In this document: positions 4,755 to 56,433 of the stretch, one piece after another
Layout: each line of letters opens with the position of its first letter
How positions within the stretch are numbered: position 1 is the stretch's first letter
Assembly: GCF_000309385.1 (NCBI RefSeq)
Contig: NZ_JH976537.1
Location: 2,152,029-2,216,028, forward strand
DNA from: Nodosilinea nodulosa PCC 7104
GTDB lineage: Bacteria; Cyanobacteriota; Cyanobacteriia; Phormidesmidales; Phormidesmidaceae
DNA: 64,000 bases
Direction: 5' to 3'
The notes under the pieces: model-generated
What the model was told of the DNA's origin: nothing
Databases searched by the model: none
What the model saw: only the letters and a program-made list of their open reading frames with translations
Program-made: the position numbers and the translations under genes

Positions 4755-5582
4755 CTAATCTTGCTGAGTCGAAAACTGGCGCGCGCCGATCGCCGCCAGC
4801 ACCGCCGCCGCCACAATCAACACCGGGATGGTAAACCACGGAAACTCGGCGATGGGCTGATAGGCCGCCGCCCGCAGGCCCACCGTGGTGTAGGTCAGGG
4901 GCAGCAGATAAACAATTACCTTCAGCGCCATCGGCAGGGTGCTGGGGTCGAAGAAGGTGCCGCCCAAAAACGACATCGGCACGATCAAAAAGTTGTTGAA
5001 CAGGCCTACGCTTTCCAGAGACTTTACGTTCAGGCCGACGATTACCCCCAGACCGGCAAACACGGCGCAGTTGAGCACCACCAGCAGCAAAAACAGCGGG
5101 TTAATAAAGCTCCAAAACCGCCCGGTGAAGAGAATCGCTACCAAAATCACCGAGCCTGCCGTCATTAGCCCGCGCACAATGCCCGCCAGCATTTTGCCCA
5201 GGTGCAGCGCCAGGGGATGCACCGGGTAGAGCAGCATTTCCTCAAAGGTTTTGGTAAACAGGCGATCGCCGCAAATTGAAAACGTGGTGCCGCCAAAGCT
5301 AATCACCATCGACGACAGCGCCACCATGCCCGGCAAAATAAACTCCAGGTAGTTGTCGCCCGCTGGGGGTGTCGTGACCTGGTCGATGGCGCTGCCCAGG
5401 CCCAGGCCAAAGGCCAAAATATAGATCAGCGGCGACACCAGCCCCGACGCCGCCACCTGGGGAATCCGCACCCGCAGATCTAGCCAGTCGCCCCAAAATA
5501 CCGTGAGCATATCTGCCCAGAGGGTGCGCAAAGGCAGCGCCTCGATCTGACGCGAACGGGGACGGGAGAGAATATTAGTCAC
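4755..5582 (-). CDS. ABC-2 type transporter permease
   Basis: The 275-residue protein has six predicted membrane helices and the ABC-2 signature region (GLGVIVGLNVKSLESVGLFNNFLIVPMSFLGGTFFDPSTLP read across residues 170-215). This resembles NodJ/YadH/DrrB-type exporters. It would form the membrane channel of an exporter for a polysaccharide, lipid or drug. No ATP-binding subunit is adjacent: the downstream gene is a GST and the upstream gene a 70-residue unknown, so the ATPase must be encoded elsewhere. The start ATG at 5582 fits the family length. Confidence 0.9.
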   Translation of the reverse strand: MTNILSRPRSRQIEALPLRTLWADMLTVFWGDWLDLRVRIPQVAASGLVSPLIYILAFGLGLGSAIDQVTTPPAGDNYLEFILPGMVALSSMVISFGGTTFSICGDRLFTKTFEEMLLYPVHPLALHLGKMLAGIVRGLMTAGSVILVAILFTGRFWSFINPLFLLLVVLNCAVFAGLGVIVGLNVKSLESVGLFNNFLIVPMSFLGGTFFDPSTLPMALKVIVYLLPLTYTTVGLRAAAYQPIAEFPWFTIPVLIVAAAVLAAIGARQFSTQQD

Positions 5583-53785: not shown

Positions 53786-54340
53786 ATGGTCTCTCAGCTC
53801 AAGCCCCTTTCCCTGGCACCGTCGCCGTCTTCCATTGTCCGTCATCCGCTCCTGCAAACAGTTGAAGGGACCGTACAGGTTTTCACGGCGGCCCACCGTA
53901 ATTTTTTCACCAACGTTATGGCGCAGGCGCTGCGCATCGCCGACCAAGGGAAGGCCGTGCTGATTGTGCAGTTTCTCAAGGGTGGCATTCACCAGGGGCC
54001 GACCCAGCCTACGCAGTTTGGCCAAAACCTGGATTGGATTCGCGCCGATATGCCCCGCTGTGTCCATACCCCCGAGGTGGGTAATGACGAACGGGAGGCC
54101 ATTAAGGATCTCTGGCTGCACACGAAGGCCGTCGTGGCGAGGGGCCGCTATGGCTTAGTTGTCCTAGACGAACTGAGTTTAGCGGTCAACTATGGCCTGA
54201 TTCCGGCCCAGGATGTAGTGGATTTTCTTCAGCAGCGCCCCCCTCAGGTCGATGTCATTCTGACAGGTCCGGCTATGCCAGATCTATTGCTCACCGTTGC
54301 CGACCAGGTAACGGAGTTTCGCCGCCACGTCTTGCCCTGA
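53786..54340 (+). CDS. CobA/CobO-like P-loop protein with degenerate Walker A
   Basis: The 184-residue protein follows the cob(I)yrinic acid adenosyltransferase fold: LIVQFLKGGIHQGPT (59-73), LWLHTKAVVARGRYGLVVLDELSLAVNYGLI (109-139) and VDVILTGPAMPDLLLTVADQVTEFR. The position of the Walker A loop reads FTAAHRNFFTNVMAQALRIA (33-52), lacking the GxGKGKT signature needed for ATP. It is thus probably not an active adenosyltransferase. Start ATG 53786. Its neighbour downstream is dcd, and the original dcd remnant lies beyond the insert. Confidence 0.85.
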   Translation: MVSQLKPLSLAPSPSSIVRHPLLQTVEGTVQVFTAAHRNFFTNVMAQALRIADQGKAVLIVQFLKGGIHQGPTQPTQFGQNLDWIRADMPRCVHTPEVGNDEREAIKDLWLHTKAVVARGRYGLVVLDELSLAVNYGLIPAQDVVDFLQQRPPQVDVILTGPAMPDLLLTVADQVTEFRRHVLP

Positions 54341-54445
54341 CCTTGGACTTAGAATATATACATCTATAGGCTTAGATTTCGTATATGGTGCTAAAGTCGT
54401 ATTCTTGAATTTAAAGCTTCCCCATAGTTCTTTAGAGTGATAAAG

Positions 54446-55027
54446 ATGTTGAAAAACGATAAATGGATTCTTGAAAAAGCTAAACATGGCATGATAGAAC
54501 CCTTCGAAGAAAGCTTAGTACGTCATGTTGAAGATAGAAAAGTAGTTAGTTATGGCCTATCAAGCTATGGCTATGACTTGAGATTAGCACCTTCAGACTT
54601 TAGAGTCTTTAAGCACATACCTGGGACTGTTGTTAATCCTAAGAGGTTCAATCCGGCCAACCTTGAAGCAGTAGAGCTGCAATCGGATGAAGACGGATCT
54701 TTCTTTATCATTCCTGCCAATTCTTATGCGTTGGGTGTGTCTCTTGAAAGGCTTAAGATACCTTCCAATATAACAGTCATATGTATAGGAAAGTCTACAA
54801 TGGCCCGCTGCGGGATTATCGCAAATATTACTCCCGCTGAAGCATCTTGGGAAGGATATCTAACTTTAGAATTTAGTAATGCTTCCAGTGCTGACTGTAG
54901 AATTTATGCTAATGAGGGTGTTTTACAACTTTTGTTTTTAGAAGGGGAGCCTTGCCAAACGACTTATGCAGACCGTTTTGGCAAGTATCAAGACCAGCCT
55001 CAGTTTGTGACTCTTGCTAAAGTTTAA
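54446..55027 (+). CDS. dcd: dCTP deaminase, AT-rich copy
   Basis: The 193-residue enzyme deaminates dCTP to dUTP. It has SYGLSSYGYDLRLAP near residue 38, the GKSTMARCGI catalytic segment (Ser117, Arg121), and Glu142 in LTLEFSN, the general base. All key residues are present. The start ATG 54446 matches the family start MLKNDKWI. The DNA is markedly poorer in GC than flanking genes, whereas a GC-rich fragment of the same gene lies 1 kb downstream, so this copy is probably acquired. Next on the map is a convergent membrane gene. Confidence 0.95.
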   Translation: MLKNDKWILEKAKHGMIEPFEESLVRHVEDRKVVSYGLSSYGYDLRLAPSDFRVFKHIPGTVVNPKRFNPANLEAVELQSDEDGSFFIIPANSYALGVSLERLKIPSNITVICIGKSTMARCGIIANITPAEASWEGYLTLEFSNASSADCRIYANEGVLQLLFLEGEPCQTTYADRFGKYQDQPQFVTLAKV

Positions 55028-55063
55028 GCATTTACCATTTATGTTGATTGCAGCTTTACCACC

Positions 55064-55795
55064 TTAAGGCAAGGGCTGTTTTTGCTGAGGCTGACTCGGA
55101 GCAGTAGGTAATTGGGATGGTGTCGATTGCTGTGTTTTCTGAAACTGCTGTACAAGAACTGCAATATTTGCAAAAGTTGCTAGTAGAGTAACTACTGTCA
55201 GTAATACGTTCAAGAAGGTTGATCGCCTTTCTCCAAAATCAACGAGCTTTGCCCAAAACGTTTGTGATCCCGTCGTTGGCTGTTTTTGTTCAGGTTTATC
55301 GTATGGAATTACACCTTTGCCAACTTCAATAACATAAAGAGAACAAAATTTGTCCCCTCTTTTTAGTGATACAGGTTTCTTCCCAAGATTGAAGAGAGTC
55401 ACAAGCAAAAAGCCATCATAACCGGGATCAATTTTTGACGAAGTATTTGATATTCCTTTTTGCAAGAGTTTCACTTTTGGTACGATATGCCCGAATCTAG
55501 TTTCTGGAAAGTTAACCGATTCCATTGTTTCAATAATAACTGATGAATTTGGATCTAAGATAAATTCTTCTTTATCTTTCAAGGGCAAACCAATAGCGTG
55601 CTTGTCTAGCTTGTATGAATTGCCAATTCTTAAGTCATAAGAAGCGTTGCCTGATTCAGTATCAGTAAGCTGATCAATGTCGAGGTTCCTTATGCAAATC
55701 ATAAATCCTGTAGAACCACCTGATTCACGATATTCCGTAGGCGTTGTAACGACTGTTCTGTATTCACCCTGTAATACAAACGGAATTAAACTCAT
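55064..55795 (-). CDS. Membrane-anchored dUTPase/dCTP-deaminase-fold protein
   Basis: The 243-residue protein contains a dCTP deaminase/dUTPase-type beta barrel: ASYDLRIGNSYKLD (51-64), TRFGHIVPKVKLLQKGISNTSSKIDPGYDGFLLVTLFNLGKKPVSLKRGDKFCSLYV. The Dcd catalytic Glu position is Thr (GFLLVTLFN), and Asp123 in KIDPGYDG could serve as in dUTPases. After the domain there is a linker, one membrane helix at about 193-217 (TFLNVLLTVVTLLATFANIAVLV) and a Gln/Pro tail. The gene is AT-rich (18 of 60 bases are G or C in 55501-55560) and convergent with dcd. Role unknown; a nucleotide sensor at the membrane is conceivable. Confidence 0.88.
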   Translation of the reverse strand: MSLIPFVLQGEYRTVVTTPTEYRESGGSTGFMICIRNLDIDQLTDTESGNASYDLRIGNSYKLDKHAIGLPLKDKEEFILDPNSSVIIETMESVNFPETRFGHIVPKVKLLQKGISNTSSKIDPGYDGFLLVTLFNLGKKPVSLKRGDKFCSLYVIEVGKGVIPYDKPEQKQPTTGSQTFWAKLVDFGERRSTFLNVLLTVVTLLATFANIAVLVQQFQKTQQSTPSQLPTAPSQPQQKQPLP

Positions 55796-56032
55796 GTTCG
55801 AATTATTAACCCAATATATTCGTTGCTATCTAAAGTATCCCTGAAGAGAATCGAATTCAGCTATTCTCTTAATTAATTTCTAAGCAGATATTGTCGGTTT
55901 TAGAGTTATCCCCGACGATCCTGGCGATATGTCCATAAGGTGAAAGCCTTGCAGAGTAATGGTTAAGAGAGTTCGGTGTATATAGTCTCTATGTCTTACG
56001 GGCTGCCATGTAGAAAACTTTTCTTACATAAC

Positions 56033-56293
56033 AACATCAGCGTGATTTGCATCGGCAAATCGACCTATGCCCGCTGCGGCATTATTGCCAACCTCACCCC
56101 CGCCGAAGCCGGTTGGCGGGGGCACCTCACCCTGGAATTCTCAAACTCCTCTAGCGCCGACTGCCGCATCTATGCCGCAGAAGGAGTGGTTCAGCTCATC
56201 TTCTTTGAGGGTGAACCCTGTCAGGTGAGCTACGAAACCCGCCGCGGCAAGTACCAGGATCAAGCTGAACAGGTTACCCTGGCTCGGATTTAG
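56033..56293 (+). pseudogene. dcd: 3' remnant of the native dcd
   Basis: The 86 codons from [17 protein letters not shown] to the stop align without gaps to residues 108-193 of the upstream Dcd, with 65 of 86 residues identical by my hand alignment. It keeps Ser, Arg and the catalytic Glu (LTLEFSN), but the first half of the gene is missing. This stretch is GC-rich (39 of 60 bases in 56101-56160), like the rest of the genome. The frame extends upstream to 55976, but that part matches nothing. It is a truncated gene, probably not functional. Confidence 0.88.
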
Positions 56294-56433
56294 GCTGGCT
56301 TACATTTAAACCATAGCGGAGCATAGACTCACTAATGCCGCTGGGCAAAAATCCAGGCCACCGCCTGCCCCGCCTGCGGTCAACAAACGGATGCCGTAGT
56401 CTGCCAGCCTACTGCTTCAACCCATTTGTCCAC

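Follow-up and report, generated by a model that had tools for sequence, protein, structure and literature searches.

The displacement of a gene in situ by a xenologue is a general phenomenon, and the dcd locus of Nodosilinea nodulosa PCC 7104 described here bears its marks: an orthologue of foreign type at the same, native locus, an incongruent tree and a remnant of the native gene. It differs in that its layout recurs in several species and its remnant is host-like, which points to repeated exchange. For dcd itself, a self-excising intein with an HNH domain was described in cyanophage vB_AphaS-CL131 (PMC6293099). Both cases present dcd as a target of mobile sequences in cyanobacteria and their phages, and since the C-terminal parts of the phage gene product and of one intein-bearing dcd in our set (G001) have the same length (72 aa), the intein site is probably the same (PMC6293099). 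However, the phage gene has an in-frame intein and not a displacing cassette (PMC6293099), while the dcd copies of the window carry no intein. A further related system is the Vibrio-type defence enzyme AvcD, a deoxycytidylate deaminase and thus likewise active on deoxycytidine nucleotides according to the section consulted (PMC10511110). The two cassette proteins of our locus were matched by no PADLOC-DB profile (0 families at E ≤ 0.01). AvcD is of a different protein family, with the fold of the zinc-dependent deaminases and not the Dcd/dUTPase fold. Finally, the Hma locus of Dolichospermum ST_sed8 resembles ours in its order, in which cobA is followed by a complete dcd of a different type, then by cargo and by a 3′ fragment of dcd; its cargo comprises approximately 10 kb with a defence system, whereas ours is one membrane Dcd-like gene.

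The window, i.e., the whole stretch analyzed, comprises 64,000 nucleotides (contig NZ_JH976537.1, positions 2,152,029 to 2,216,028), and all coordinates of our locus refer to it. Directly 3′ of cobA, a cobA/cobO-type corrinoid adenosyltransferase gene in the host-type flank (53786..54340, + strand; Pfam PF02572 CobA_CobO_BtuR, E 4.4e-27), lies a low-GC cassette (54341-55996, GC 0.39), and the order is an intact dcd, a convergent membrane-protein gene and the 3′ half of the native dcd. The left end of the cassette is an AT-rich gap (54341..54445, GC 0.33). It is followed by the intact foreign-type dcd on the + strand (54446..55027, 193 aa), assigned by its TIGR02274 score and its clade position; its likely start is the ATG at 54446, while the list of open reading frames places it at an upstream GTG (54437). 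The next gene, on the − strand (55064..55795), codes for a Dcd/dUTPase-fold protein of 243 aa with one C-terminal membrane helix, assigned by PF22769, hydropathy and the dcd neighbour in other genomes. An AT-rich spacer (55796..55996) aligns with the spacer of the congener G009, and no homology with codons 1-95 of native dcd could be detected in it. The native remnant on the + strand consists of a decayed 5′ end (55997..56032), starting at approximately native codon 100, and a well preserved, host-like 3′ part of 86 codons (56033..56293). No other ORF above 70 aa was found within 54341-55996.

The stretch 54341-55795 has a GC content of 0.388, compared with a window mean of 0.573 (sd 0.050), and an equally low value occurs in 3 of 1251 stretches of the same length, all of which start at 54351-54451 and overlap it almost wholly. 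Third codon positions differ accordingly, with a GC3 of 0.325 for dcd and 0.303 for the membrane gene versus 0.665 for cobA and 0.690 for the remnant. The intact copy, the membrane protein and the remnant all match Pfam DCD (E 8.9e-24, 6.5e-16 and 4.2e-13, respectively). An earlier sequence-only reading, which had reported an AT-rich stretch with a complete Dcd and a membrane dUTPase-fold gene, is borne out by these values, and its hand counts were exact on recount (GC 18/60 in 55501-55560 and 39/60 in 56101-56160; 65/86 identical positions when the remnant is aligned with the C-terminal 86 residues of the intact Dcd). Its start of native homology had to be shifted from 55976 to near 55997, where similarity becomes detectable, the first approximately 40 nt being decayed.

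The intact Dcd scores above the curated cut-off of TIGR02274 for dCTP deaminase (118 vs 92.8 bits), and in alignments it keeps the active-site block GKSTxARCG and the LEF glutamate, whose role we take over from E. coli Dcd. A search of the own genome at E ≤ 0.001 returned only the intact copy and the remnant as dcd matches and no complete second dcd; a complete GC-rich copy elsewhere, with no sign of transfer here, is what the earlier reading had named as evidence against transfer. An assembly artefact is unlikely, since two other genomes (MAGs) show the same layout. Two other readings of the spacer were considered. As the end of an intron it gained no backing from Rfam, which gave two streptococcal sRNA matches on the cassette, far under the gathering score. 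A native dcd present as a full-length pseudogene behind an intergenic insertion was rejected, as the comparison of 55796-55988 with codons 1-95 of three natives was no better than shuffles (z −0.5 to 0.8). That the spacers of the window and G009 are kin is based on alignments; when the spacer DNA was searched for by itself in the 26 genus genomes (E ≤ 0.01), G009 was not listed and, besides the window, only two 30-nt matches appeared (E 0.005-0.008).

Of these 26 genomes, 25 have a dcd match, and foreign-type dcd (89-99% identical) was found in three, the window genome (G000), G009 and G021; the remaining copies are 65-71% identical to the window's dcd. The predicted uninterrupted state was encountered at 19 of 23 congener loci, which have a full native dcd (GC 0.52-0.61) no more than 200 nt from cobA. 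The congener G009 has the whole layout, with cobA, a foreign-type dcd (97%), the membrane gene (87%) and a remnant preceded by stops, and in G021 a foreign-type dcd follows cobA on a contig that ends soon beyond. In a search at the order level, all 63 genomes covered belonged to the same family and 61 gave a match; five have the foreign type (G000, G009, G021, G046 and G050), and in three of these a remnant follows it within the contig. In Halomicronema (G050), cobA is again followed by foreign-type dcd, membrane gene and dcd 3′ remnant; its membrane protein is 44% identical to that of the window, and its displacement may be a separate event. Foreign-type dcd likewise follows cobA in five Nostocales, among them Cyanocohniella, Westiellopsis and Fischerella. 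The comparison covers one genome per species and is to be read between, not within, species.

In the Dcd tree (117 distinct of 143 rows, leaving out the split dcd of G001), the copies of the window and G009 are sisters (100/92) and form a set with those of G021 and Halomicronema (100/85). A larger clade (100/94) adds G046, G287, an unclassified cyanobacterium, Nostocales and the viral contig L069; the foreign-type dcd of G046, a genome of the same family, thus stands outside the Nodosilineaceae set. Of the 22 native-type Nodosilinea rows, 21 form one separate clade (100/98), and the last, a second copy in G018, stands apart on a long branch. That a foreign dcd displaced the native one, as the sequence-only reading proposed, is therefore upheld by a clade away from the native dcd of the genus, the native locus and the 3′ half left behind. 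The dcd of L069 is 84% identical to the window's, and as the tree places it, with modest support, beside two Nostocales, this contig may have taken it from a Nostocales-like host. By eye, its ORFs resemble ribonucleotide reductase, methyltransferases and ParB, and the record has no match to the membrane protein. In the annotated phage collection, the nine nearest relatives reach 60-66% identity; going by their names or listed hosts, all of them infect filamentous cyanobacteria. No donor of the same haplotype was found, and no plasmid record contained the cassette DNA (54341-55996). For the membrane protein, 23 plasmid records matched, all below 60% identity and none covering 80% of the query, and six viral stretches matched a pattern, none of which was confirmed.

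The explanation that we consider best, and probable, is displacement in place by a divergent dcd allele that passes between species by homologous recombination. A dcd of foreign clade in the same slot, the same layout in relatives, scattered hosts and host-like flanks and remnant are observed; recombination as the carrier, the direction of transfer and any benefit are inferred. The divergent allele, with its linked convergent membrane gene, would have taken the place of the 5′ half of the native dcd downstream of cobA and would move among Nodosilineaceae with the shared cobA side as left arm and the dcd 3′ half, carried by the cassette as remnant, as right arm. As an intact Dcd arrives with the cassette, dCTP deaminase need at no time be missing from the recipient. 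The remnant would be renewed with recipient DNA at every exchange, so that only its junction end would decay. If this is right, the locus is a clear natural case of a basic-pathway gene swapped between species without ever being lost, in which a working copy arrives with the new allele and the end of the former gene serves as the landing strip. Of the single foreign acquisition proposed before, the foreign origin and the insertion in place stand, while the single event gives way to an older allele apparently moving between species (G009 and G050 have the same layout).

In both the window and G009, similarity to native-dcd relatives extends to the cobA stop and breaks at the edges of the cassette. 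On either side of the cassette, as far as the cobA stop and once more from the remnant onwards, G009 shows 85-90% identity with the native-dcd genomes G020, G008 and G004; the DNA values for G008 are 86.0% as far as the cobA stop and 89.6% from position 4986 onwards, versus 77% to the window. The flanks and remnant of G009 are closer to native-dcd hosts; the grouping of the cassette thus cuts across hosts, whereas that of flanks and remnant goes with the host. The flank tree groups G009 with G020, G008, G004, G010, G017 and G019, the window with G022, G007, G016 and G025, and G021 with G014. This tree of cobA and rph includes 22 of 28 rows (L017, L023, L037, L039 and L154 were dropped for missing genes and L038 as a duplicate). 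Its three carriers need three changes, all three forced by well supported branches; as shuffled labels give a mean of 2.9 changes and most inner branches lack strong support (5 of 19 starred), the scatter of carriers shows a lack of clustering only. Against the exchange model also speaks that, between the window and G009, dS is little lower in the cassette (0.93-0.98) than in the flanks (1.0-2.0). A weak point of the model is that the breaks coincide with the cassette edges in both species, as more scatter of crossovers would be expected.

The remnant is the place where vertical inheritance has to be weighed, i.e., a single entry in the ancestor of the family with the remnant maintained as a selected short gene and the cassette lost in the other species. 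Between the window and G009, the remnant shows 38 synonymous versus 5.8 nonsynonymous differences over 78 codons, far from neutral decay, and G050 also keeps 82 of its codons open, both as expected of a selected gene. The comparison of the G009 remnant with the native dcd of G020 gives 27 synonymous and 4 nonsynonymous differences. However, the remnant of G009 has no ATG, GTG or TTG in the first 86 of its 92 open codons, so that translation is an unlikely reason for its preservation; G050 has indels near the junction end, and the start candidates of the window and G050 differ. The remnant as a working gene was rejected on these grounds. Vertical inheritance would moreover need a full native dcd restored in many species, and the carriers are scattered; we regard it as unlikely. 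Relatives with the same ancestral arrangement had been named beforehand as speaking against a transfer: the arrangement does recur (G009, G050), but with its carriers scattered among native-dcd species it does not appear ancestral.

Decay is confined to the junction end of the remnant in the window, G009 and G050. In the two junction-side blocks of 30 columns, identity is 61% for G009 against G008 and 57% for the window against G007, compared with 90% and 85%, respectively, in the next 240 columns, where natives agree with each other at 83-87%; in G050, the poorly matching part extends approximately 60 nt further. The simplest reading, and one in line with exchange between species, is that the preserved remnant is recipient DNA from a recent exchange, silenced only lately.

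A defence role of the cassette had also been suggested, and the cobA-dcd slot offers a case in point. The locus of Dolichospermum G182 (L277, 3295-14256) comprises cobA, an intact dcd with 77% identity to that of the window, an Hma system (HmaA E 3.7e-189, HmaC 1.1e-125, HmaB only as a 110-aa fragment), toxin-antitoxin-like ORFs by eye between dcd and fragment, and a 62-codon dcd 3′ fragment. By eye, the fragment is like the dcd of two genomes of the same genus; since dcd of Nostoc and Anabaena phages also matches it (8 records, most at 60-80%), it is only likely, not certain, to be native. By analogy, the window could hold an integrative element that targets dcd and carries its own rescue dcd along with the membrane Dcd-like gene as anti-phage cargo, and a weak 18-nt inverted pair (83%; 54145-54162 and 56302-56319) does flank cassette and remnant. 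Against this, 54341-55996 contains neither a recombinase-sized ORF, dcd and the membrane gene being the only ones above 70 aa, nor terminal repeats, no direct repeat flanks it, its two proteins lack a PADLOC match, and the neighbours of the membrane family are dUMP-supply genes in 7 of 8 distant loci read. With no recombinase-sized ORF and no defence-profile match, a defence role of the window cassette is unsupported, and the integrative element appears quite improbable to us. The G182 locus keeps the defence link of the slot open, though not that of the window cassette.

In the class search, 298 of 388 genomes had dcd at E ≤ 1e-8. Of the 18 genomes with two dcd matches, 17 were searched again (all except the window's own), and seven have one open frame with an insert, read as an intein by sequence and tested with an HMM in G001. 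The sites are ICIGK^S (G139, G352, G374), STYAR^C (G001, G031, G335) and TPAEA^SW (G345). The insert in G041 looks like these cases, and among the in-frame inteins (L045, 4220-5470, from G001, and L278-L283), some are endonuclease-sized and others short. In L188 (2399-5444), dcd is split by a group II intron (RF00029 at 4925-5001) with a reverse transcriptase/maturase and an HNH domain. Intein homing endonucleases, or group II introns, might thus have cut the active-site block of native dcd, with repair from divergent DNA producing the displacement. The three intein sites in this block, the intron, the intein with an HNH domain in phage CL131 (PMC6293099) and the G182 fragment, which begins at about one intein site, would fit such a course. 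The breakpoint of the window and G009 (approximately native codon 100) lies approximately 23 codons upstream of the nearest intein site, however, and with only three remnant types known here the agreement in G182 may be coincidence, which makes this origin highly improbable. If displacement by exchange is right, the cobA-adjacent dcd slot would be a settling place not only for inteins and a group II intron but also for alternative genes of dUMP supply and a defence system. As a separate observation, an intact dcd in Anabaena FACHB-1237 (L162, 5004-5793) is directly preceded by a 36-residue 5′ piece of dcd, which mirrors the remnant in the window.

The membrane protein reaches 59.2 bits with PF22769 (DCD superfamily fold; gathering score 27) and stays below the cut-offs for dCTP deaminase (TIGR02274, 59.3 vs 92.8 bits) and dUTP diphosphatase (TIGR00576, 37.2 vs 102.55 bits). 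Hydropathy gives its single C-terminal membrane helix from residue ~193. In all 12 aligned members of the family, the position of the catalytic glutamate is T, P or S, and IDPG(Y/W/F) or VDPG(Y/W) is kept; motifs of this IDPG/VDPG type occur in dUTPases and E. coli-type Dcd. A structure search finds Dcd and dUTPases, which is no independent proof, as the profile held two true Dcd rows, and the AlphaFold2 model has a mean pLDDT of 47.1. Judged from its sequence features, the protein probably does not deaminate and may serve dUMP/dTTP supply as a partner or sensor. That it replaces a missing dUTPase was considered and not upheld: non-membrane PF00692 is found in 0 of 13 carriers of the membrane gene versus 3 of 11 non-carriers (P = 0.082), the other 8 of 11 non-carriers being without it as well. 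A wider reading would have the protein act as a nucleotide sensor or effector that reads, e.g., dCTP, dUTP or dTTP at the membrane together with the adjacent dUMP-supply enzyme, and would make the cobA-dcd slot a contested site between cyanobacteria and phages at which rescue-dcd alleles are exchanged; we consider this speculative and rather unlikely. Our literature search gave no on-topic account of a membrane Dcd/dUTPase in cyanobacteria, which is no proof of its absence from print. The membrane-anchored Dcd-like family is uncharacterised and in our view the most open lead from this work.

Among the 388 genomes of the class, 41 match the membrane protein at E ≤ 0.001 and six at E < 1e-50. 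In six of eight close homologues, the gene is convergent with and adjoins dcd behind cobA (in G157, this dcd is not of the foreign type, 70%), and in the other two (L156, L157) a second Dcd-type gene (150 bits) lies in between. The latter two have dcd, the second Dcd type and the membrane Dcd-like gene in a row, followed by a thyX-type gene (L156, 5004-7063, Pfam-tested there). Eight loci were read among the 35 weaker-matching genomes: four have the gene beside dcd, three between dCMP-deaminase-like and deoxyribosyltransferase-like genes (calls tested with Pfam in L235, where the deoxyribosyltransferase match is just below the cut-off), and one (L240) beside neither. The locus thereby points to a membrane Dcd-like family that accompanies dUMP-supply enzymes. 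In L237 and L239, a set of thymidylate synthase, dCMP deaminase, membrane Dcd-like and deoxyribosyltransferase-like genes, recognized by eye, lies beside cobA in place of dcd.
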